This document shows positions 14,178 through 42,554 of a stretch of 64,000 nt of DNA, one piece after another (positions within the stretch are counted from its first letter, which is position 1; every line of letters starts with the position of its first letter). The notes below the pieces were generated by a model that was given only the letters and a program-made list of their open reading frames with translations, was not told where the DNA came from and made no database searches. The DNA is from Vulgatibacter incomptus (GTDB lineage: Bacteria; Myxococcota; Myxococcia; Myxococcales; Vulgatibacteraceae), in assembly GCF_001263175.1 (NCBI RefSeq), contig NZ_CP012332.1, positions 3,926,220 to 3,990,219 of the forward strand, written 5' to 3'. The translations under genes were made by a program, and so were the position numbers.

Positions 14178-14885
14178 TTAGCGGACCTTGCCGAGCTCGC
14201 CGAGGCGCTCGTCGAGCTTGCGGTAGGTCTGGATGGCTTGCATGGACTGGTCGAAGGAGCGCTGCGCGGCGATGAGCTGCACCGCGGCCTCGAGGGGACC
14301 CGCGTTGCCGAGCTCGAGCTCGCCGGTGCGGACGTGGCCTGAAACGGGGATCGCCGCCGATTCCGTCGGCGTGAGGAGCGAGCCGCCGTGGCGCTCGACG
14401 GCGCCCTCCAGGCGGAAGAGCGCGAGCCGGCCGACCTCGAGCTCGCCCACGCGCACCGCGCCGTTCGCGTCCACCACCGGCGTCACGTCGTCGACGGGAA
14501 CGAGGATCGGCTCGCCGCTCCTCGAGAGGACGGGATGGCCGGCGGTGCGCAGCACGCCGTCGGCGTCGACGGAGAGCCGGCCGTCGCGGGTGTAGGCGAC
14601 GGCGCCGGAGGGAAGCGTCACGCCGAAGAAGGCGCCATCGTCGGGCACGAGATCGAGGGGGCGGCCGGTGGGCTCGATCGAGCCCGGGCGGAGATCGACG
14701 CCGGTGGCCACGGCGCCCGCGTAGACCTTGCCGCCGTCGCCGCCTTCGGGGAGGAACGACTCGAACGCGGGACGCGAGGCCTTGAACCCCACCGATCGCG
14801 CGTTGGCGAGGTTGTCTGCCACCGACTCGAGCTGCTTCGAGCGCGCGACCGCGGCGCTCATGCCGACGTAGATTCCGTCACTCAT
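14178..14885 (-). CDS. flgF: Proximal rod protein FlgF
   Basis: A 235-residue rod protein, first gene of the late operon. It shows the rod-protein N-terminus (GIYVGMSAAVARSKQLESVADNLANARSVGFK, read in parts) and C-terminal QLIAAQRSFDQSMQAIQTYRKLDERLGEL. Start ATG 14885 is preceded by AAGGAGG (14902-14896), and a strong sigma-54 element lies 33 bases upstream. It is a little more divergent than FlgG, as is usual for FlgF. Confidence 0.92.
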   Translation of the reverse strand: MSDGIYVGMSAAVARSKQLESVADNLANARSVGFKASRPAFESFLPEGGDGGKVYAGAVATGVDLRPGSIEPTGRPLDLVPDDGAFFGVTLPSGAVAYTRDGRLSVDADGVLRTAGHPVLSRSGEPILVPVDDVTPVVDANGAVRVGELEVGRLALFRLEGAVERHGGSLLTPTESAAIPVSGHVRTGELELGNAGPLEAAVQLIAAQRSFDQSMQAIQTYRKLDERLGELGKVR

Positions 14886-14917
14886 CCGTCGCGGGCCTCC
14901 TTGGGGAGAGGGTTGAG

Positions 14918-14933
14918 AGCAAGCGCCTTGCCA
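14918..14933 (-). promoter_or_regulatory. Sigma-54 promoter of the flgF operon
   Basis: The minus-strand sequence TGGCAAGGCGCTTGCT fits the -24/-12 consensus TGGCAC-N5-TTGCW at every conserved position except one (C to A), with exact GG/GC spacing. The predicted start is near 14907, giving a leader of about 22 bases that contains the flgF Shine-Dalgarno site. Confidence 0.75.
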
Positions 14934-14984
14934 GCGCCGCCGACATCGAATTGACGCGTACGCCTTTTGCATTCGAGGCGAGCG

Positions 14985-15404
14985 ATGGCCCCGAAGACCC
15001 GGCTCGACGCGGTGGTGCGGATCCGTGAGCACCAGGAGCAGGAGGCGCGCCTCGCGCTGGCCTCCGCCGCGGCGTCCACCCGGCAGGCCCGGGAGCGGGT
15101 GCGCGCGCTGCGCGAGGCGTCGCTGCGGGAGGCGGGGCCGCGCTCGGCCCTGGAGTGGGAGATCGCCCAGGCCGCGTCGTTCCGGATGCTCGACGCGATT
15201 CGGCTGGCGGAGTCGGTGGTCCTCGACGCCGAGGCCAGGGAGCGCGCAGCGAAGGCCGGCTTCGAGGCGGCCCATCGGGCGGCCGAGTCGGTTCGCCGCG
15301 CGGCGGAGTCGAGGCGGGAGGCGATCGTCCGTGAGCAGGAGAAGGCCGAGCGCAAGGAGCTCGACGCCTTCGGCCAGCTCGCCCATGTGCGCCGCAGCTC
15401 CTGA
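14985..15404 (+). CDS. fliJ: FliJ-like flagellar export chaperone/ATPase stalk protein
   Basis: A 139-residue coiled-coil protein rich in Ala, Arg and Glu, starting MAPKTRLDAVVRIREHQEQEARLALA. It matches the FliJ pattern of an N-terminal RLDxVLxIRexxExxA-type segment followed by one long antiparallel coiled coil. FliJ is the central stalk of the FliI ATPase ring in flagellar export. ATG 14985 has GAGG about seven bases upstream; an earlier in-frame start at 14967 lacks this. fliJ normally follows fliI, but here it is alone on the opposite strand between the two flagellar operons, convergent with fliA (6-base gap). Confidence 0.8.
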   Translation: MAPKTRLDAVVRIREHQEQEARLALASAAASTRQARERVRALREASLREAGPRSALEWEIAQAASFRMLDAIRLAESVVLDAEARERAAKAGFEAAHRAAESVRRAAESRREAIVREQEKAERKELDAFGQLAHVRRSS

Positions 15405-16116: not shown

Positions 16117-17019
16117 TTATTCGCTCGCGAGCGAAGAACGCGCCGGCGTGGAGGACTCCCGGAGGAGGCGCTGCCAGAGGATCTTGAGCCCTCCCTCGAG
16201 CCTGGAAGCGGCGGGCTCGCCCAGAAGCTTGTCGGCGATCTGCTCGAGGCTCCGGCTCGAAGGCGACAGCGGGAAGCACTTCACCAGCGGCCTCTGCATC
16301 ATCACCGCGCGGTGGATGTTCTCGTCGCGGGGCAGGTAGCCGAGGTATCGCAGCCTGGCGTGGAGGAAGCGCTCGGTGAGCCGCGGCAGCCTGCCGAAGA
16401 CCTCGCGCGCCTGGGCCTCGCTCGCCGCCGGGTTGACCAACACGTGGAAGACGCCGGTCATCCCCTGCTGCGAGAGCACCTTCACCGCGGCGTAGGCGTC
16501 GGTGAGCGAGGTGGGCTCCGGGCTCACGACGAGGATCGTCTCCTGACAGGCGCCGACGAAGAAGGTCATGTTGTCGCCGATGCCCGCGGCGGAGTCCGCG
16601 ATCACCAGGTCGAAGTCGTCGTCGAGGGTGTCGAGCTCGCCGATGATCCGCATCTTCTGCGCGGATCCGAGCCGCGCGAGCTGAAGGACACCGGTGCCCG
16701 CCGAGAGGATCTTGATCCCGTGGGGGCCCTCGGTGAGCGCCTCGCGGATGGACACGGAGCCGTCGAGGACGTGCCCGAGGTGGAAGCGGGGCGCGACGCC
16801 CAGGAGGATCTCGGCGTTGGCGAGGCCGAGGTCTCCGTCGAGGAGGAGCACGCGCCTTCCCTGCCGGGCGGCGATCACGGCGAGGTTGGCGGCGACGGTG
16901 CTCTTGCCCACGCCCCCCTTGCCGGACGTCACGGCGATGACGCGCAGGGGGGTCGTCTTTTCTGTGCGTTTGTTATTCACGAGAAGTCGAAGGCTCTCGG
17001 CCTGGTCCGTGACTTTCAC
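16117..17019 (-). CDS. flhG: FlhG (FleN/YlxH) MinD-like ATPase
   Basis: A 300-residue MinD/ParA-family ATPase controlling flagellar number. The deviant Walker A GKGGVGKST is at residues 33-41, followed by LLLDGDLGLANAEILLG and the DSAAGIGDN Walker B/switch region. The N-terminal TDQAESLRLLVNNK is the DQAxxLR motif typical of FlhG, where it stimulates the FlhF GTPase. The GTG start at 17019 overlaps the flhF stop (GTGA). It may also restrain the sigma-54 activator, as FleN does to FleQ; that is family knowledge and is not visible here. Confidence 0.93.
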   Translation of the reverse strand: MKVTDQAESLRLLVNNKRTEKTTPLRVIAVTSGKGGVGKSTVAANLAVIAARQGRRVLLLDGDLGLANAEILLGVAPRFHLGHVLDGSVSIREALTEGPHGIKILSAGTGVLQLARLGSAQKMRIIGELDTLDDDFDLVIADSAAGIGDNMTFFVGACQETILVVSPEPTSLTDAYAAVKVLSQQGMTGVFHVLVNPAASEAQAREVFGRLPRLTERFLHARLRYLGYLPRDENIHRAVMMQRPLVKCFPLSPSSRSLEQIADKLLGEPAASRLEGGLKILWQRLLRESSTPARSSLASE

Positions 17020-18300: not shown

Positions 18301-20361
18301 TCACGCCGCCGTCTTCATCGTCACTTGCAAGAGTCCCGCCGGCTCCACCGAGGTGCCCGGCACCAATTCCCTGGCGCTGATCACCTGCAGCTCCGGCACG
18401 AAGCGGGAGGCGAAGTCGAAGAGGGGCCGGCGCAGGTCGGGGGGCGCCAGGAGCACGGGTACGTTGCCGGCGGCCGAGAGCGCGGCGGAGAGGGTCTCGA
18501 GCTGCGCGATGAGCTGCCGCGCCGTCTCGAGGTCGGGGGCGAGGGCGGCCTCGCCGTCGGAGACGCCGAGGGAGCCGCGCAGCAGCTCCTCCGTGGCGCG
18601 GTCGAGGGTGATCGCCCTCACCGGGCCGGCGCCGTCGCGGACCCTGCCGGTAATCTGGCGCGAGAGGCGGCGGCGCGCCTGCTCCACCAGGAAGGCGGTG
18701 TCCTTGCTGCGGGGCGCCGCGTCCGCCACCGCCTCGAGGATCGTGCGCAGATCCCGCACCGAGAGCTGCTCTCGGAGCAGCCCGCGCAGCACCCGGACCA
18801 GCTCACCCAGGGTGATGGTCGCCGGCACGACGTCCTCGACCAGCTTGGGCGCCTCCCGCGCGCAGACGGAGAGGAGCTCCTGGGTCTCCTGCCGTCCGAC
18901 CAGCTCGTGGGCGTGCCGCCGCAGGAGCTCCGAGAGGTGGGTGGCGACGACGGAGGCCGCGTCCACCAGGGTGAGGCCGAGGGCCTCCGCCTTGGGGCGG
19001 TCGCGGGTCTGGATCCACACCGCGGGCAGGCCGAAGGCGGGCTCCTTTCCGGCGATGCCGTCGACGGAGGGCGCGCGGCCGGTGGGGTCGAGGGCCATCA
19101 GCCGATCGGCGTGGGCCGCGCCCCTCGCGATCTCGTGGCCGCGCAGGAGCAGCCGGTACTCGCTCGCGCCCAGTCCCAGGTCGTCGCGCAGGTGCACCGA
19201 CGGCAGCACGATGCCGAGCTCCTCGGCGAGCTTCTTCCGGAGGGCTGTGACCCGGCCGGGGAGCTCGCCGCCCCTGGCGAGATCGATGAGGGCGACGAGG
19301 CCGTAGCCCACGTGCAGCTCCAGCGCGTCGACGGCGAGGAGATCCTGGATCTTCTCCGGGCCCTTGGGTTCGGCCTCAGCGGTCGGGTGCGCCTTGTCCT
19401 TCTTGGCGGCCTTGTCGACCCGGCGCGAGAGGAGGAAGGCGCCGGCGGCGAGGGAGCCGAAGGCGGCGAAGGGGAGACCCGGCAGGAGCGCGAGGATGCC
19501 GAGGACCGCCGCGGTGGACGCGAGCACGCGGGCGTTGCCGAAGATCTGCCCGCCCACCTGCGAGCCGAGGTCGGAGCCCTGCGCGCGGGTGACCACGATA
19601 CCGGCGGCGGTGGAGACGAGGAGCGCCGGCATCTGGGCGACCAGGCCGTCGCCGACGGTGAGCAGGGTGTAGGTGTCGACCGCCTGGCGCAGCGAGAGGC
19701 CGTCCCTGAGGAGGCCGGTGGCGAGGCCGCCCAGCAGGTTCACCGCGGTGATCAGCAGGCCGGCGATCGCGTCGCCGCGCACGAACTTGCTCGCGCCGTC
19801 CATGGCGCCGAAGAACTCGGCCTCCTGCGAGAGGGTCTGGCGCCGGAGCTTCGCCTCGCGATCGTCGACGATGCCGGCGGCGAGGTCGGCGTCGATCGCC
19901 ATCTGCTTGCCCGGCATCGCGTCCAGGGTGAAGCGCGCCGCCACCTCCGACACGCGCCCCGAGCCCTTGGTGATCACGATGAAGTTGACCAGCAGGAGGA
20001 TGAGGAAGATCACCAGGCCGACGACGAGGCTGCCGCCGACCATGAAGCGGCCGAAGGTCGCGATCACGGAGCCCGCCGCGCCGGGGCCCTCGCCGCCGTG
20101 GAGGAGGATCAGCCTCGTGGTGGCGACGTTGAGGCCGAGGCGGAAGAGGGTCGTGAGGAGAAGCAGCGACGGGAAGACCGAGAACTCCAGCGGCTGCTTG
20201 ATCCCGAGACCGATGAGGAGCATCAGCACCGAGACGCCGATGTTGAAGGCCAGGAGCACGTCGAGGGCCGCCGCCGGCACCGGCAGGATCAGGATCGCCA
20301 GGATGCCGATGACGGCGATGGCGGAGAGGGTCTCGCCCGCTCTGCGGGGGCTCGCGCTCAC
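18301..20361 (-). CDS. flhA: Flagellar export gate protein FlhA
   Basis: A 686-residue export-gate protein. Eight membrane segments in the N-terminal half include the conserved FHIPEP-region elements PLEFSVFPSLLLLTTLFRLGLNVA (read in parts) and MPGKQMAIDADL. The C-terminal cytosolic half (from about residue 345) binds chaperone-substrate complexes. The GTG start at 20361 overlaps the flhB stop (GTGA), and the first residues MSASPRRAGETLSAIAVIGI lead directly into helix 1. Length is normal. Confidence 0.96.
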   Translation of the reverse strand: MSASPRRAGETLSAIAVIGILAILILPVPAAALDVLLAFNIGVSVLMLLIGLGIKQPLEFSVFPSLLLLTTLFRLGLNVATTRLILLHGGEGPGAAGSVIATFGRFMVGGSLVVGLVIFLILLLVNFIVITKGSGRVSEVAARFTLDAMPGKQMAIDADLAAGIVDDREAKLRRQTLSQEAEFFGAMDGASKFVRGDAIAGLLITAVNLLGGLATGLLRDGLSLRQAVDTYTLLTVGDGLVAQMPALLVSTAAGIVVTRAQGSDLGSQVGGQIFGNARVLASTAAVLGILALLPGLPFAAFGSLAAGAFLLSRRVDKAAKKDKAHPTAEAEPKGPEKIQDLLAVDALELHVGYGLVALIDLARGGELPGRVTALRKKLAEELGIVLPSVHLRDDLGLGASEYRLLLRGHEIARGAAHADRLMALDPTGRAPSVDGIAGKEPAFGLPAVWIQTRDRPKAEALGLTLVDAASVVATHLSELLRRHAHELVGRQETQELLSVCAREAPKLVEDVVPATITLGELVRVLRGLLREQLSVRDLRTILEAVADAAPRSKDTAFLVEQARRRLSRQITGRVRDGAGPVRAITLDRATEELLRGSLGVSDGEAALAPDLETARQLIAQLETLSAALSAAGNVPVLLAPPDLRRPLFDFASRFVPELQVISARELVPGTSVEPAGLLQVTMKTAA

Positions 20362-21425
20362 GCCGCCCTCGCGGCGCCGGGCCTTCCGGTGATCCGGTAG
20401 ACGAAGGCGAGGATGGTGGCCACGGCCTTGTAGGTCTCCGCCGGGATCTCGCGGCCGACCTTGACCCGCCGGTAGAGGAGGCGTGCGAGGGGGATGTCCT
20501 CGACGATGGGGATCCCGTTGCTGCGGGCGAGCTCCCGCATGATCTCGGCGAGCTGCCCCTTGCCCTTGGCGATGACGCGGGGCGCGCGCGCCTCGTCCCG
20601 GCGGTAGCGGATCGCCACCGCGACGTGGGTGGGATTCACGAGGACGGCGTCGGCTCGCGGCACCTCCACCGAGACGCGGACGCGGGCGAGCTCGCGCTGC
20701 CGCCTTCGGCGCTGTGAGCGGATGAGGGGATCTCCCTCGTCCTCCTTGTGCTCTCGCTTCAGCTCTTCCCGGGTCATCCGCATCTTGGCTCCGAACCGGT
20801 AGCGGGTGACTGCAAAGTCCACACCCGCGAGCGCCACCATCACCGTCAGCACCCTGACGCCGGCCGAAGCGATCAACGACGAGAAGTGGGAGAGCTGGGC
20901 GGCAGGCGTCGCGGTGGGGAGTGAGCCCAGGCCCAGCGCGTCGTCGCGGACGGAGAGCCACACGGTGCCGAGGATGGCGAGGACCTTCACCGCCGCGAGG
21001 CCCAGGTCGGAGACGACCTCGCGCGAGAAGAGGCGCTTCAGCTTTCCCGCCTGCCAGAGCCTCTCGGGATCCGGCGCGGCGAGGTGGGGCCACATCCGCG
21101 CGCGGGTCTGAACGACGGTGGCCGCGAGGCCCCCGGCAGCGCCGGCCAGGCAGGGAACGAGGGCGAGGAGGGTGGGGCGCGCGAGGAGGCCCAGGAGCGC
21201 GCTGGGCCGCCCCTCCGGCGCGGCGCGGACGGACGCGCCGAAGAGCTCGATGAGGGCGTCGCGGAGGGGGATCGCGGCGAACGACAGCGCGACGAGGGCC
21301 GCGCCGAGGGAGGCGACCGTCACCGCGTCCTTGGAGAGGGCGATCTGGCCCTTGTCCGCGGCGTGTTGCAGGCGCTTTTGTGACGCCTGCTCGGTCTTGT
21401 CGTCCTTGCTGCTCTCGTCAGACAC
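20358..21425 (-). CDS. flhB: Flagellar export switch protein FlhB
   Basis: A 355-residue membrane protein with the conserved DKTEQASQKRLQHAADKGQI start, four membrane segments and the C-terminal autocleavage motif NPTH at residues 264-267. Cleavage between Asn and Pro switches export from rod/hook to filament substrates, acting with FliK (29183-30877). It is separated from fliR by only three bases. Confidence 0.96.
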   Translation of the reverse strand: MSDESSKDDKTEQASQKRLQHAADKGQIALSKDAVTVASLGAALVALSFAAIPLRDALIELFGASVRAAPEGRPSALLGLLARPTLLALVPCLAGAAGGLAATVVQTRARMWPHLAAPDPERLWQAGKLKRLFSREVVSDLGLAAVKVLAILGTVWLSVRDDALGLGSLPTATPAAQLSHFSSLIASAGVRVLTVMVALAGVDFAVTRYRFGAKMRMTREELKREHKEDEGDPLIRSQRRRRQRELARVRVSVEVPRADAVLVNPTHVAVAIRYRRDEARAPRVIAKGKGQLAEIMRELARSNGIPIVEDIPLARLLYRRVKVGREIPAETYKAVATILAFVYRITGRPGAARAA

Positions 21426-23866: not shown

Positions 23867-24855
23867 GTTGCCTCCGGGCGTGGCGCGGGTCGGAACGCCC
23901 GCTCCAGCTTCACGGCCATGCCGCCGTGGACGACCATGGGGTGACCGCTCAGCTTCTCGCGGCCTTCTACGAACAGCGGGAGCGCCGAGCTCTCCTCGGT
24001 GCCCAAAAGGAGCACGTCGCCTTCCCCGAGCTCGAGGAGCCGCGCGAGCGTGAGCGAGGTGCGGCCGAGGACGGCGCAGACCTCGACCACGGTGGCCTCG
24101 ACCTCGAGGGCGAGGGCCTCCCTCGTGCGGGGATCGCGGGTGGCCTGCGAGCGGACCTCGTTGCCGAGGACCTTCTTGGCGGGCTGGATCGCGGTGTACG
24201 GGATCGCGAGCTGGATCCGGCCGCCGATCGGGCCGCTGATGGCGAAGGAGGTGAGCACGGCGACGTCGCCGCCTGGCGCGATGGAGATCGCGAGGCGCGG
24301 ATCGGCCTCGAGCCTCGCCACCTCCGGCTGCATCGGCAGGTAGGGCGCCCACGCGTGTCCCATGGCGTCGGTGAGCAGACCGAGGAGCTTGCGGAGGACC
24401 TGCTTGCCGACTGGTGTCAGCTCCTGTCGATCTGTCGCGGCCTCGCTCGGGGCCTTGTCGCCGAGGGCGGCGGCCACCAGGGACTCCGCGAGGCCCGGAT
24501 CGAGGATGGCGATCGCCTCCGTTCCGCGGCCGAGGGAGATGACGCAGACGGTGGCGGGCGGCGCCAGGAGCATCTCCAGATCCGCGAGAGGCACCAGGGT
24601 CCCCGGCGTCGGCGCAACGCGGAGCGGCAGGCGTGTGCGCCCGGACAGGCCCGTGGAGAGACGCGCGGCGATCTGCTCGTGGATGGAGTCGAGGGCGGGC
24701 ATGCGGCCGCGCAGCACCCGATCCCGGCTGGTCAGGTCGTAGGGGATCGCCTGGCCGCGAGCGTCGGCCGGAGCGTTGCTCTCCTGGACGCGACCCTCGC
24801 GGATCGCGCCCATTAGCGCGTCGAGCTCCTCGGGGTTGAGGTCGGCGCCTTTCAC
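23863..24855 (-). CDS. fliM: Flagellar motor switch protein FliM
   Basis: A 330-residue C-ring protein. The N-terminal peptide [14 protein letters not shown] (residues 5-18) corresponds to the CheY-P-binding motif, so rotation is probably under CheY control even though no cheY is present in this window. A CheC-like middle domain and a C-terminal SpoA domain ([35 protein letters not shown], read in parts) follow. It overlaps fliL and fliN by four bases. Confidence 0.92.
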
Positions 24856-25349
24856 TGGACCATGAACTCCGTGAGGAAGATCGCGCGGACCGACGACTTG
24901 GGCATCACCTCGCCGAGGAGCTGGAGCAGCGAGCGGCGGAGGGTGTTCATCCCTTCCGTTCCGCGAAGCTCCTCGAGGGTGCGATCGCTCAGGTAGCCGA
25001 TGAACGAGTCCCGGATCCGCGGCATGTTCGTGGTGACGAGCTCGCGGTCGGTCTCCTTGCCCAGCTCGATCTCCACCGTGAGGCGCAGGTATCGGTCGAC
25101 CTCCGGATTGCGCAGGTGGATCACGAAGTCCGGCAGCCTCACGATCGGCCCGGGCGTCCCGGGCGCGGGCTGCCCTTCGGCGGCGGCCTCGGGCGGCGGC
25201 TCCGGCTTCGCCTCGGGGGCGGAACCGCTCGGGCGGAGCAGGAGCATCGCCAGGACACCCGCGACCAGCAGGCTGTTGAGGGCGAGGAGTGCGGGGACGA
25301 GCTTTCCCGATCCCTCGTTGCGCTTCGGTTCGTTCGATTCGGCAGCCAT
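24852..25349 (-). CDS. fliL: Flagellar basal-body protein FliL
   Basis: A 165-residue membrane protein with one helix (about residues 18-37), an Ala/Pro/Glu linker and a periplasmic domain ([25 protein letters not shown], read in parts, to [12 protein letters not shown]). FliL surrounds MotA/B stators and supports torque. ATG 25349 starts the conserved protein; the ORF is open further upstream to 25403. A sigma-54-like element lies only 14 bases before this ATG, which would give an almost leaderless mRNA. Confidence 0.9.
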
Positions 25350-25362
25350 TGCCGGGCGAAAT

Positions 25363-25378
25363 AGCAAGCGACGTGCCC
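25363..25378 (-). promoter_or_regulatory. Candidate sigma-54 promoter before fliL
   Basis: The minus-strand sequence GGGCACGTCGCTTGCT matches the sigma-54 consensus at all positions except the first, with exact GG/GC spacing. It lies in the 64-base gap between motB and fliL. The predicted start near 25352 is only about three bases before the fliL ATG, which is unusual. Confidence 0.5.
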
Positions 25379-25413
25379 GCCCGAGGAGGGCTCGGCCCGT
25401 CAATCGGCTGACG

Positions 25414-37471: not shown

Positions 37472-37487
37472 TGCGAAAGCCGTGCCC
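37472..37487 (-). promoter_or_regulatory. Sigma-54 promoter of the flgB operon
   Basis: The minus-strand GGGCACGGCTTTCGCA differs from TGGCAC-N5-TTGCA only at the first base and one T of the -12 box, with correct GG/GC spacing. The predicted start near 37461 gives a 37-base leader for flgB. It lies in the 73-base gap after the TPR gene. Confidence 0.6.
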
Positions 37488-37497
37488 GACTCTCGCG

Positions 37498-38871
37498 TCA
37501 GGTTCCTGTCTCGATCTCCTTCGCGCGCTCGAGGGCCTGTCGCGCCGCCTCGAGGTCCGGCTTCTCGGGAGGAGGCGGCGTCTCGGGGCTCGCTTCGGCC
37601 GACTCAACGCTGGCGCGGACCTGCGCCCACGGCCGGGAGGCGAGCACCTTCTTGCCGAGCCTCTCGTCGGCGAACTCGAGGATCACCGAGGCGCGGACGC
37701 GGTCTCCGGCCTGCAGATAGAGCTGCGCGGTGCGGAGCAGATGTGCGCCGAGGAGGGAGCGCGGCGCAGCGTCGGCGACAACCGCGAGGGAGCTCGCCCC
37801 GAACCTCGGCGCCCCGGCTTCGGCCGCCACCTCCGCCGCCGCCGTGGCCAGCTCGAAGGCGAGCGCACCCGAGGTGCGATCGGGGAGCGCGAGGAAGAGG
37901 AGCAGGCCCGCCGTCCTCGCGTCGGCGTTGGCGGTGCGCATCGCCTCCACCGCGATCCGGCGGCAGAGGCCGCGATCGAGGGCGCAGGCCCTCTCGTCGC
38001 TCTCGAGGAGGCGTGCAGCCGCCTCGAGCCGATCCTCGAAGGCGAAGGCACGGGCGCCGCGGAGCGCCACCTCGCTTCGCAGCGGCTCGGGCAGTCCGAC
38101 CGGATCGAAGATCCGATCCTCGTCAGGAGAGCCGAGGCAGCTGCCGAGGAGCTCGCAAGATCGCGCGACGCCGATTCGGCCCCAGATCCCGATGGCTCCC
38201 GGCCGCCGATAGTGCTCGCCCGCTTCGGCGAGGGCGCCCTTCGCGGCGGCGAGATCGCCGAGGCGGATCGACGCCGCGCCCGCCGCCGACGGATCCTCGA
38301 GCGCTTCGCGGAAGCGGGAGGAGGCTTCCTCGTCGCGCCCGGCGGCCAGCGCGCACTCTCCCTGTGAGAAGGGCGAGTCGCCCGGACAGGCGCCGCCGAG
38401 GCCGAGCGGGACCGGATCCCAGAACACCCGGGGCGGCGCCGGATCGGGCGGGAGGCCGCGGACCTCGCGGAGGTCGAGGAAGGATGCGCCGCGGCTCCGG
38501 ACCAGGGCCGCGTCGATCCGCCGGCTGCGACAGCGCAGCACGACGCGGCCGCCCTCGACGGCGCTCTCGGGGCAGAGGGAGCCCCTCCGCGCCTCCAGCG
38601 CCGCGGAGAGCGGGGCCAGAGGCCCCTTCGCGTCGACGACGATGCGGGCGCCGAGGGCGTCGACCTCGATCCCGCTCACCCGGCTCGCGTCCGGCAGGTG
38701 GATCCGCTCCCACGACGCCGCCTGCGCCAGGCGGGCCGAGGCTCCCTGCTTCCGGGCCTCGGCGCCGGACGGACGGGGGGAGGCCAGCGAGGTGGTAGCC
38801 GGTAGAAGCGCCAGGAGCGACAGCGACCCGACCACCGCGCGAAGGCCCCAGCGCCGCATGGCCCGCGACAT
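37498..38871 (-). CDS. Secreted TPR-like protein coupled to the flagellar regulator
   Basis: A 457-residue protein with a signal peptide (RRWGLRAVVGSLSLLALLPATTSLA). Next comes a beta-rich N-terminal domain (about 55-135, IHLPDASRVSGIEVDALGA) and then helical repeats resembling TPR/Sel1 units (for example AAGRDEEASSRFREALEDPS and DLAAAKGALAEAGEHYRR). Paired cysteines (GACPG..GECAL, SCELLGSC, ACALDRGLC) suggest disulfides in the periplasm. ATG 38871 overlaps the activator stop by one base. No family is recognised. Placement between the regulator and flgB suggests a role in flagellar assembly at the envelope, but that is inference. Confidence 0.6.
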   Translation of the reverse strand: MSRAMRRWGLRAVVGSLSLLALLPATTSLASPRPSGAEARKQGASARLAQAASWERIHLPDASRVSGIEVDALGARIVVDAKGPLAPLSAALEARRGSLCPESAVEGGRVVLRCRSRRIDAALVRSRGASFLDLREVRGLPPDPAPPRVFWDPVPLGLGGACPGDSPFSQGECALAAGRDEEASSRFREALEDPSAAGAASIRLGDLAAAKGALAEAGEHYRRPGAIGIWGRIGVARSCELLGSCLGSPDEDRIFDPVGLPEPLRSEVALRGARAFAFEDRLEAAARLLESDERACALDRGLCRRIAVEAMRTANADARTAGLLLFLALPDRTSGALAFELATAAAEVAAEAGAPRFGASSLAVVADAAPRSLLGAHLLRTAQLYLQAGDRVRASVILEFADERLGKKVLASRPWAQVRASVESAEASPETPPPPEKPDLEAARQALERAKEIETGT

Positions 38872-40142
38872 CACGGCGTGTTCGCCGTCGAATCGGGCGG
38901 AGCCGCGTCGCGGTTCCGGCGGCGGAGCTTCTCGACCAGCGTGGTCCGCTGCAGGCCGAGGAGATCGGCGGCCGCCTTCTTGTTGCCCTCTGCGTTCCGG
39001 AGCGCGGTCTCGATGTACCGGTCCTCGATCGCGCGGAGCAGGGCGGGAAGATCCAGCGGGAGCACCGGCTCCCAATCCGACGGGGACTCCTCCACGAGGC
39101 CGGCTCGCGCCAGCCGCACCGCTTCGAGCTCCTCGGGTGACTCCTGGAAGGTCGCGTCGGGTCGGGGCACCGACTCTCGGGCGGGAGCCTGGTCTTCGAG
39201 TCCGGCAGCCCAGGCCGCGTCGCTGGAGATCTCCGCGGCCGCCTCGTTCGCCACGCCGGAGAGGTCCGCTACCGCGTCGTCGTCGGTCGACGCCCCGCCG
39301 TCGAGGACGATCGGGGTCGCCTCAACGACGTCCGTCGCCTCGTCCGGGAGCGGGTGCAGCATCGGCTTCCGGCGGAATTCCTCGGGCAGATCCGTCGCTT
39401 CGATGACCTCCCCCTCCGCGCAGATCGAGAGGCGCTCGACCAGGTTCTCGAGCTCGCGGACGTTGCCGGGCCAGTCGTGGCTGCAGAGGCGCACCATCGC
39501 CTCGGGTGCGATCCGCCGGCTCTCGCCGCGCCTGCGCCAGAAGTGGAGGAAGAGGGGCGCGATGTCCGCCCGGCGCTCGCGCAGGGCCGGCAGCTCCAGG
39601 GGGCAGACCAGCAGGCGGTAGTAGAGGTCCCTCCGGAAGCGCCCGGCCTCCACCTCCGCGGTGAGGTCGCGGTTCGTCGCCGCCACCAGCCGGAAGTTCG
39701 CAGGGACCGGCTCGGTGCTCCCCACCGGCTCGTACGAGCGCTCCTGCAGCACCCGCAGGAGCTTGGCCTGCAGCGAGAGGGGGAGCTCGCCGATCTCGTC
39801 CAGGAAGAGGGTGCCTCCGTCCGCGAGGGCGATGCGCCCCTTGCGCGACTGGAACGCTCCGGTGAACGCGCCCCTCACGTAGCCGAAGAGCTCGCTCTCC
39901 AGGAGCGCCTCCGGGATCGCGGCGCAGTTCACCGGCACCAGCGTGCGCTCGACGCGGGCGCTGTGCTCGTGGACGAGGCGCGCGAAGACCTCCTTGCCGG
40001 TCCCGGTCTCCCCCGTGATCAGGACCGTGGCCTCGCTCGCAGCGATCCGTTTGCAAAGGCGCGCGAGATTCAAGAGGGGAGAGCCCGGTCCATGCACGAG
40101 CTGTGTGTATGGAAGCACCTGGGGATCAGCGGAGAGCGCCAT
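38871..40142 (-). CDS. Sigma-54-dependent flagellar activator (FleQ/FlrA type, no receiver domain)
   Basis: A 423-residue bacterial enhancer-binding protein. The AAA+ domain begins almost at once: Walker A GETGTGKE at 44-51, the sigma-54-contacting GAFTGA loop at 91-96, LFLDEIG (112-118), and the arginine-finger region through residue about 250. A long acidic linker (about 265-360) follows, then a Fis-type helix-turn-helix (RAIEDRYIETALRNAEGNKKAAADLLGLQRTTL, read in parts). No REC, GAF or PAS domain precedes the ATPase, so control is probably by synthesis level, c-di-GMP or a partner such as FlhG. It is the likely master activator of the sigma-54 elements found here. The start has only a weak Shine-Dalgarno site. 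Confidence 0.9.
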   Translation of the reverse strand: MALSADPQVLPYTQLVHGPGSPLLNLARLCKRIAASEATVLITGETGTGKEVFARLVHEHSARVERTLVPVNCAAIPEALLESELFGYVRGAFTGAFQSRKGRIALADGGTLFLDEIGELPLSLQAKLLRVLQERSYEPVGSTEPVPANFRLVAATNRDLTAEVEAGRFRRDLYYRLLVCPLELPALRERRADIAPLFLHFWRRRGESRRIAPEAMVRLCSHDWPGNVRELENLVERLSICAEGEVIEATDLPEEFRRKPMLHPLPDEATDVVEATPIVLDGGASTDDDAVADLSGVANEAAAEISSDAAWAAGLEDQAPARESVPRPDATFQESPEELEAVRLARAGLVEESPSDWEPVLPLDLPALLRAIEDRYIETALRNAEGNKKAAADLLGLQRTTLVEKLRRRNRDAAPPDSTANTP

Positions 40143-40271
40143 GAGACTGGATGCCTTTCAACGATGGGCGCGGTGCGGTGACACCTAGATACCAGATGTG
40201 AATGTTCGAAATGCCACAGAAATGACGCTCGCCGTTGGGTTCTGGACGATTCCGCGCCATGCAGAGGGGAC

Positions 40272-40287
40272 TGCAGAAGCAGTGCCA
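40272..40287 (-). promoter_or_regulatory. Candidate sigma-54 promoter of the AAA+ activator gene
   Basis: The minus-strand TGGCACTGCTTCTGCA matches TGGCAC-N5-TTGCA with one mismatch in the -12 box and exact spacing. The start would be near 40261, giving a leader of about 119 bases before ATG 40142. If real, the activator gene is itself sigma-54 controlled, perhaps autoregulated. Confidence 0.5.
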
Positions 40288-40290
40288 CAT

Positions 40291-40334
40291 GAAACATGGG
40301 AGAAACATGGGGTTGGTATGGGATGAGTATGGGG
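40291..40334. repeat. Four tandem 11-bp repeats, candidate regulator-binding array
   Basis: Four consecutive 11-base units read GAAACATGGGA, GAAACATGGGG, TTGGTATGGGA and TGAGTATGGGG, with core YATGGGR. The period equals one DNA turn, so each core lies on the same helix face. The array begins three bases upstream of the sigma-54-like element of the activator gene. Response regulators of the OmpR/PhoB group bind 11-bp direct half-sites; which protein binds here is unknown. Confidence 0.65.
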
Positions 40335-40544
40335 GAGACGTAGGCTCCGTTTGTTTTTCAGCTAATTGCGATTTTTCGATTTGTGCGGATCGGGCAGGCC
40401 GTCCGGAGGCGCGGGGATGGCCCGGCGAGCGGGCGATCCGGACTCGAGCCGCCGGGGCCGCGAGTGAAGGGCGAGCACTCGGGCTCACGCAAAGCGGCCG
40501 CGGCAAAGCTGCGCAGGGAGGTCGCCCTCCCTACTTTCGACGGT

Positions 40545-42554
40545 ATGGAGACTCCCGGTGCCGAGCGGGGAGAGGGGGTACGCCGGGGCATCACCGAGCG
40601 TGCGCTTCTGAGTCGGCGCGGCCTCGTGTCCGAAGGCGTGATCGAGCTCGCACGGACCGCCGCGCAGATCGCGGGGAGGGCACGGCCCGAGGACGTCTTC
40701 GGCGAGATCGCCGCCCAGCTCGTGGAGCTGGGTGCCGAGGGGAGCCGGGTCTACCTCCTGGAGCCGGAGAAGGGCCGCCTGCGCTCCATCGCGGGCCGCG
40801 GCTCCCTCGACCTCCCGAGTGGCGAGGAGGCCATCGCCGTCGGCGGCGAGGGCGTCGTGGCGCGGGCGGCGGCGGGCGAGACGGTCTTCGAGACCAGGCG
40901 AGGGAAGAAGGGGCCGCGGACCCTCATCGCCATTCCGCTCCACGAGGACGAGCAGGTCATCGGCGTGGTCGCGTGGAGCATGCCGACGCCCGAGCTTCCG
41001 AGCGGAAAGGAGCGGGTCGTGATCCAGGCCATCGCCGGGATCTTCGAGGCCGTGGTCGGCACCGCGCTCCTCCACCAGCGCCGCGAGCAGGAGTCGAGCG
41101 AGAGCCTGCGAGTGGCCCTCGGCACCGCGCCCATCGGGATGTGCGTGGTCGACCTCGACCTCCGCTTCCTCCAGGTGAACCGCGCCTTCGCCGAGATGAC
41201 CGGCTACTCCCGGGAGGAGCTCCTGGACATGAGCTCGCGGGACCTCACCTTCCCCGACGATCGCGAGTCGACCGAGGAGATCGTCGAGAGGGTCGTTCGC
41301 GGCGAGGTGAAGAACCCGGTCTACTCCAAGCGCTACGTCCGCAAGGATGGCCAGGTGATCGAGGTGGAGATCCACGGAGGCCTGGTCCTCGCCGACGACG
41401 GCAGCCCGTTGCACTTCGTGGCCCAGATCGTCGACATCACCGATCGGCGCCGCGCCGAGAGGGAGCAGGAGGAGCTCCTCGCCTGGCTCCATCAGGAGTG
41501 GAGCTGGCTCTCCACCGTGATCGAGCAGTCACCCTCCGGGATCGTCCTCCTCCGCGGGACCGAGCGGATCATCTTCAACCCGATGGCCGAGCAGCTCTTC
41601 GGCTTCCACCTGGAGCCGGACCTCGGCATCGGCCAGCTCGCGGGGCGGATCCGGTGGGGCGACGACGGCGAGCTGGCGACCGAGGAGGACCTGGCGGCCG
41701 GCCGCCTCTGGGAGCCGGGAGCCCAGCAAATCTCGATCGTCCGGCCGGACGGGACCGAGCTCCCCGCCGTCGAGAGCTCCGCGCCCATCTCCCAGCCCAA
41801 TTCCCAGCCCAATTCCCGGGAGCGGTACGGCAGCGCGGGGCGGGTTCTGATCTTCCAGGACATCACCCCGCTCAAGGATATGGAGAGGCAGCGGGAGGAG
41901 TGGACCTCCATCGTGGCCCACGACCTCCGCCAGGTCGTCACGGTGATCACCTCCTACACCGGCCTCCTCGCGCGGCAGGCCGGCGCGGATCCCATCTCCG
42001 AGAAGCTCCGGCACATCCTGACGAACGCGAACCACCTGTCGCGGATGATCTCCGACCTCGTCGACTCCTCGCGCCTCGACACCGACCGTCTCGAGCTGCA
42101 ACTCGAGCTCGTCGACCTGGGCTGGCTGGTGCGCGACGTCGTCGAGAGGCGCGAGGCCACGCTGGGCGACCACTCCGTCGACCTCGACATCGAGCGCCAC
42201 CTCCCGGACGTGGACATCGATTCCGGCCGCATCGAGCAGGTCTTGGACAACCTCCTCTCGAACGCGGTGAAGTACTCCTCGCCAAAGTCCACCATCGAGA
42301 TCCAGGTGTCGCGGGCCGACCACGGCCTCGAAGTGGCGGTGAGCAACCGCGGCGAAGGGATCACCTCCGAGGAGCTCCCCCACGTGTTCCGCCGCTTCCA
42401 GCGATCCGCCAGCGCGAGCCGCACCGAGGGCCTGGGCCTCGGCCTCTACATCGCCAAGGGGATCGTCGAAGCCCACGGCGGCCGCATCCGGGCGGAGAGC
42501 ACGCCGGGCGAGACCACCACCTTTCGCTTCGAGCTCCCCCTCCCGCCGAGCTGA
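40545..42554 (+). CDS. GAF-PAS-PAS sensor histidine kinase
   Basis: A 669-residue soluble-looking kinase. An N-terminal GAF domain (about 45-180, ARPEDVFGEIAAQLVELGA) is followed by PAS 1 (about 195-310, VALGTAPIGMCVVDLDLRFL), PAS 2 (about 325-440, VIEQSPSGIVLLRGTERIIF), HisKA with phosphoacceptor His459 (SIVAHDLRQVV) and a complete HATPase with N box (QVLDNLLSNAVKYSS) and G boxes (RTEGLGLGLYIAKGI). No membrane helix is visible. The start at ATG 40545 precedes the folded region; an upstream in-frame extension to 40383 has no similarity. It is divergent from the flagellar activator but has no cognate regulator next to it. Confidence 0.88.
   Translation: METPGAERGEGVRRGITERALLSRRGLVSEGVIELARTAAQIAGRARPEDVFGEIAAQLVELGAEGSRVYLLEPEKGRLRSIAGRGSLDLPSGEEAIAVGGEGVVARAAAGETVFETRRGKKGPRTLIAIPLHEDEQVIGVVAWSMPTPELPSGKERVVIQAIAGIFEAVVGTALLHQRREQESSESLRVALGTAPIGMCVVDLDLRFLQVNRAFAEMTGYSREELLDMSSRDLTFPDDRESTEEIVERVVRGEVKNPVYSKRYVRKDGQVIEVEIHGGLVLADDGSPLHFVAQIVDITDRRRAEREQEELLAWLHQEWSWLSTVIEQSPSGIVLLRGTERIIFNPMAEQLFGFHLEPDLGIGQLAGRIRWGDDGELATEEDLAAGRLWEPGAQQISIVRPDGTELPAVESSAPISQPNSQPNSRERYGSAGRVLIFQDITPLKDMERQREEWTSIVAHDLRQVVTVITSYTGLLARQAGADPISEKLRHILTNANHLSRMISDLVDSSRLDTDRLELQLELVDLGWLVRDVVERREATLGDHSVDLDIERHLPDVDIDSGRIEQVLDNLLSNAVKYSSPKSTIEIQVSRADHGLEVAVSNRGEGITSEELPHVFRRFQRSASASRTEGLGLGLYIAKGIVEAHGGRIRAESTPGETTTFRFELPLPPS
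41791..41814 (+). repeat. Two tandem 12-bp units in the kinase gene
   Basis: CCCAGCCCAATT occurs twice in succession, encoding the S-Q-P-N repeat within PAS 2. It is in frame and looks like recent slippage. Confidence 0.7.

Follow-up and report, generated by a model that had tools for sequence, protein, structure and literature searches.

A four-repeat array at the sigma-54 promoter of a flagellar activator suggests rewired control of swimming in the Vulgatibacter incomptus lineage

What reads four short repeats that lie between a flagellar activator gene and a divergent histidine kinase gene in Vulgatibacter incomptus, and which of the two genes do they serve? The window analyzed here is a stretch of 64,000 nt from this myxobacterium (GTDB lineage Bacteria; Myxococcota; Myxococcia; Myxococcales; Vulgatibacteraceae), taken from assembly GCF_001263175.1, contig NZ_CP012332.1, positions 3,926,220-3,990,219 of the forward strand. 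The locus contains the following features.

38871-40142, minus strand: sigma-54 activator gene, first of the flagellar run (AAA+ and Fis-type HTH, FleQ-like recognition motif)
40213-40226, minus strand: GTCATTTCTGTGGC, sole candidate box for the activator between the two genes, downstream of the promoter
40272-40287, minus strand: TGGCACTGCTTCTGCA, predicted sigma-54 (-24/-12) promoter of the activator gene, from motif match and ortholog position
40291-40334, plus strand: array, four direct repeats of 11 bp, each a YATGGGR core (7 bp) with a 4-bp spacer, from direct reading and pattern searches
40291-40301, plus strand: array unit 1, GAAACATGGGA
40302-40312, plus strand: array unit 2, GAAACATGGGG
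40313-40323, plus strand: array unit 3, TTGGTATGGGA
40324-40334, plus strand: array unit 4, TGAGTATGGGG
40335-40400, no strand assigned: A+T-rich stretch beyond the array, towards the kinase gene, which may hold the kinase promoter
40545-42554, plus strand: divergent histidine kinase gene, GAF-PAS-PAS-HisKA-HATPase, PhoR/PnpS/WalK-like, start codon uncertain

All four units contain an invariant ATGGG, and YATGGGR holds throughout at a step of exactly 11 bp, as the original prediction had it. Core bases are kept and spacer bases vary: a single base distinguishes unit 1 from unit 2, and units 3 and 4 have diverged spacers with core and phase exact. The best candidate for a fifth unit matches at only 4/7 positions (CGTAGGC). 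Period-11 arrays of four units with five consecutive identical columns occur once in the 64 kb, compared with 0.017 per shuffled window. Across periods 8-22, the sole other comparable array in the window lies inside a coding frame, and its period of 12 fits whole codons; a coding origin of the period-11 array was rejected because 11 does not divide by three.

The array is above chance, unique in its own genome, and without a comparable counterpart among 195 Myxococcota genomes. Exact matches to the two-copy pattern are confined to this site in the 4,350,553-bp genome (control 0), and a search of the 195 genomes for the four-copy pattern, allowing up to 3 mismatches, gave this genome and one other match (3 mismatches). 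With one mismatch allowed, the two-copy pattern has three other matches genome-wide against 3 in the control, so the search for further YATGGGR-11 arrays that had been proposed found none above control. Tandem repeats of 11 bp also occur in nine viral contigs (L220-L228), where the ATGGGA-type units, unlike those of the window, are nearly identical to one another; these repeats were judged unrelated on that account.

Three bases (40288-40290) separate the array from TGGCACTGCTTCTGCA on the minus strand, the distance originally reported. Within the window, TGGCACTGCTTCTGCA alone matches TGGCAC-N5-YTGCW perfectly; its GG and GC stand ten bases apart in a TGGCAC-N5-TTGC context, as expected of a sigma-54 site. 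It scores 13.7, with P = 0.003 for an equal score in a 240-bp shuffled region. A sigma-54 site lies at the equivalent place upstream of the activator in all 17 orthologs compared, and 14 of these score at least 13.4, against 0.03 expected from shuffles. A genome-wide search with a short sigma-54 consensus gave a count below its control and was uninformative. These data make the predicted sigma-54 promoter of the activator gene credible, and this part of the original prediction stands, including the activator's place at the head of the flagellar run. The 4.35-Mb genome carries two rpoN genes, L240 and L241 (G000:C1:3093913-3094383 and 2078499-2078975).

The activator has an AAA+ domain beginning near residue 20 and a Fis-type HTH, the domains expected of a FleQ-type regulator. 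It contains no receiver domain, and a search for the N-terminal FleQ receiver-like domain did not find one. Behind it follow flgB, flgC, fliE (assigned from its position and its homologs in relatives), fliF, fliG, the export ATPase gene and others, as far as fliA, flgF, flgG, and flgI; flagellin is present in the genome. The order activator, TPR-like protein, flgB, flgC, fliE, fliF is common to the relatives. The FlhA frame (18301-21093) carries about 260 extra N-terminal residues, its FHIPEP match beginning at residue 264, and its true start is probably further down than the frame as called.

The 17 orthologs, which are 59-75% identical and were aligned on their best sigma-54 site, point to the element that normally accompanies this promoter. 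GTCA-N6-TGAC, with at most one mismatch, is present in the 100 bp before the sigma-54 site in 11 of the 17 (0.5 expected); L008 and L017 are a similar pair among these, which leaves about ten independent cases. The same half-sites at gap lengths other than 6 gave nothing in these orthologs. Since the same sequences served both to find the motif and to score it, PWM ranks are biased towards it; the gap-length control is less exposed to such bias because other gaps were scored identically. The box mostly ends 4-5 bp before TGGC, and otherwise about two turns further up.

GTCA-N6-TGAC resembles the 14-bp Pseudomonas FleQ box, GTCAAT..ATTGAC (PMC10723142; PMC6120874), in its outer half-sites and its length, although a robust FleQ consensus has been doubted (PMC6120874). 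The motif is FleQ-box-like and is predicted to be the box of the flagellar activator itself. The activator's HTH segment, NKKAAADLLGLQRTTLVEKLRR, is the same or almost the same in the window and the orthologs, with an identical recognition helix, so that the V. incomptus protein should still read this box. A literature search found no description of a binding box or promoter plan for myxobacterial flagellar activators.

Three sister flagellar promoters in the window carry the same box.

37472-37510, minus strand: flgB promoter, box GACAGGAACCTGAC, then sigma-54-like GGGCACGGCTTTCGCA 23 bp downstream
25363-25412, minus strand: promoter of ORF 24852-25403, box GTCAGCCGATTGAC, then sigma-54 GGGCACGTCGCTTGCT 34 bp downstream
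14918-14955, minus strand: flgF promoter, box GTCAATTCGATGTC, then sigma-54 TGGCAAGGCGCTTGCT 22 bp downstream

In each case, the box precedes the sigma-54-like site by 22-34 bp, with one mismatch in two of the three promoters; ORF 24852-25403, directly upstream of fliM, is fliL by position. Judged by motif, the sister promoters follow the same box-then-sigma-54 plan as the activator promoters of the relatives. The joint pattern of box and sigma-54 site with 3 mismatches is too loose, its control being as high as its signal. Strong box matches at 16928, 20845, 25826, and 27644 have no good sigma-54 site nearby, apparently lie inside reading frames, and were not counted. The flgF frame (14178-15386) seems to be called too long, as its rod-domain match begins at residue 172; together with the box and sigma-54 site at 14955-14918, this suggests that flgF probably begins near 14885.

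A site adjoining the -24 element is thus normal in this clade, where the box usually nearly touches the sigma-54 site, and the original view that such a position is unusual gives way: both the relatives and the three sister promoters carry the activator's predicted box before their sigma-54 sites. What sets V. incomptus apart is the occupant. The 100 bp upstream of its activator's sigma-54 site contain neither GTCA nor TGAC, no GTCA-N6-TGAC palindrome lies within the array, and the array occupies the slot. In the comparison across relatives, which had been suggested as a check, the sigma-54 site is kept in the more distant relatives, and the array is absent from those sharing the activator-flgB-flgC-fliE-fliF order, where a different box, GTCA-N6-TGAC in 11 of the 17 orthologs, stands in its place. 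The single other member of Vulgatibacteraceae in the comparison set is without an activator ortholog, and a contig scan for closer relatives returned distant sigma-54 activators only.

The weaker box-like match GTCATTTCTGTGGC lies 61 bp past the point where the -24 element begins. It ranks 9 of 63,986 window positions on the biased PWM scale, an approximately 5% chance event for the intergenic region. FleQ boxes downstream of a promoter are known (Jyot 2002, as cited in PMC6120874). In ortholog L015 (also L139, genome G024), which has no box close upstream, a perfect GTCACCTTCATGAC lies 36 bp past the start of the -24 element, an apparent second case of downstream box relocation.

One explanation for the array is that a second, non-flagellar sigma-54 activator binds it in tandem near the promoter, as an enhancer, and starts the flagellar programme. 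Some activator must drive a sigma-54 promoter, this one lacks the usual box upstream, and the boxes of this clade appear from their position to work from beside the -24 element. The genome offers many candidates (18 sigma-54 activator matches scored in G000), and PilR-type tandem repeats provide a precedent. Activators with a Fis-type HTH usually bind inverted repeats, however, as the flagellar one appears to do; searches of the genome turned up no other combination of a sigma-54 site and an array, and GTCATTTCTGTGGC could serve autoactivation. On balance, this explanation is unlikely, with perhaps one chance in five.

Neutral tandem duplication that fell by chance in a promoter region would account for the closeness of units 1 and 2, which are one base apart as after a recent duplication, and for the absence of the array from all relatives. 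It does not readily account for units 3 and 4, in which the spacers have diverged and core and phase are exact, nor for the array being the only one of its sort with a non-coding period in 64 kb and sitting precisely in the regulatory-box slot. Neutral duplication is the least probable of the explanations considered.

The geometry of the array points elsewhere. Mycobacterium tuberculosis PhoP recognizes a 7-bp motif with a strict 4-bp spacer, and four motifs bind more tightly than two (PMC4832192). Most ArcA sites comprise direct repeats, three to five in number and 11 bp apart (PMC3798270). The array shares the 11-bp step of both, the 7+4 arrangement of PhoP, and a repeat number within three to five, which bears out the proposed match to OmpR/PhoB-type geometry; its core matches neither sequence, and its placement against a sigma-54 promoter is atypical of such sites. 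To our knowledge, YATGGGR matches no OmpR/PhoB-type half-site. The array also differs from FleQ boxes, being a direct repeat without a palindrome, next to an activator that lacks the FleQ receiver-like domain.

A precedent for its position comes from the sigma-54 promoter of Borrelia rpoS, where the direct repeats bound by BosR adjoin the -24/-12 site (PMC3037356). In both cases an additional regulator would occupy direct repeats next to a sigma-54 site, predicted in the case of the array; BosR is a Fur-family protein, its repeats are 5 bp long, and their sequence is unrelated. CtrA and Rem are OmpR-type masters of alphaproteobacterial flagella. They resemble the arrangement considered here in placing an OmpR-type regulator atop a flagellar hierarchy, and differ in that no sigma-54 master promoter of a FleQ-like activator is involved.

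The PhoP and ArcA geometry, together with the BosR precedent, led us to favor a lineage-specific OmpR/PhoB-type oligomer that would gate the flagellar master promoter from the array, a tentative reading to which we assign a probability of roughly 40%. The array would be the site of a head-to-tail oligomer of winged-helix OmpR/PhoB type, with four monomers forming two tandem dimers, aligned along a single face of the helix and up against the site of sigma-54 polymerase. The array would have taken over the slot immediately behind the -24 element, which in relatives holds the activator's box. The bound regulator would gate expression of the activator and hence of the flagellar genes, the likelier sign of control being to block access of polymerase or activator. 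The divergent PhoR-like kinase gene may be served by the same array.

Several observations count against the OmpR/PhoB-type reading. The array is known from one genome. The lack of excess one-mismatch pairs genome-wide, and the absence of array-like pairs near the six OmpR/PhoB-type genes of the genome, mean that a second site is not evident; genes of such regulators often control themselves. The two PhoB-like proteins of the genome would presumably prefer CTGTCAT-like half-sites, not YATGGGR. We also know of no OmpR-type protein that acts as a sigma-54 activator.

The neighboring kinase provides a further hint. In eight relatives, a divergent PAS-type kinase gene lies head to head with the activator, and these kinases are mutually alignable. 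Orthology with the window kinase was rejected, as the catalytic part alone aligns, and a whole-genome search for conservation of the window kinase returned generic kinase matches only. Three tested kinases of the relatives rank with AtoS, ZraS, and EspA/EspC models and the window kinase with PnpS, WalK, and PhoR models, none above curated cut-offs. These rankings hint at a difference in class, AtoS/NtrB-like in relatives and PhoR/PnpS/WalK-like in the window, short of a family assignment. An AtoS/NtrB-like kinase head to head with a receiver-less flagellar activator is a common arrangement in the relatives (L127, L128, L129, L132, L133, L134, L135, L141).

Kinases of the PnpS, WalK, and PhoR type pair with OmpR-family regulators. 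The window kinase has no response regulator beside it. Five of the six OmpR/PhoB-type DNA-binding domains in the genome lie beside a kinase, and the sixth, PhoB-like and located at G000:C1:2933793-2934476, has no adjoining kinase, so a candidate partner exists for the window kinase; as other unpaired kinases are present in the genome, this orphan is a candidate and nothing more.

The array may instead belong to the kinase gene; an activator of OmpR/PhoB type would then bind immediately ahead of the kinase promoter, and the closeness to the sigma-54 site would be incidental. OmpR-type activators do bind just upstream of -35 elements, an A+T-rich stretch lies beyond the array on the kinase side, and both the array and a PhoR-like kinase in this position are specific to this genome. 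A search of the far side of the array found no consensus kinase promoter, however, and with 3 bp between array and sigma-54 site, occupancy must affect the activator side too. We consider this assignment improbable, to about the same degree as a second sigma-54 activator.

Extending the OmpR/PhoB-type reading to both changes, a tandem array would have replaced a self-activating FleQ-like box and a PhoR-like kinase an NtrB-like one, turning a sigma-54 autoregulatory loop into a two-component gate on the polymerase site. This full sequence of replacements is unlikely, less probable than the gate itself.

For myxobacterial flagellar activators, the comparison defines a probable promoter plan and the box that they are likely to bind. 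It also suggests that the control of swimming has been rewired in the V. incomptus lineage, a concrete and testable case of rewiring atop a regulatory hierarchy, in which the input site and the neighboring kinase would have changed and the activator protein, its recognition helix, the sigma-54 site, and the target boxes are kept.
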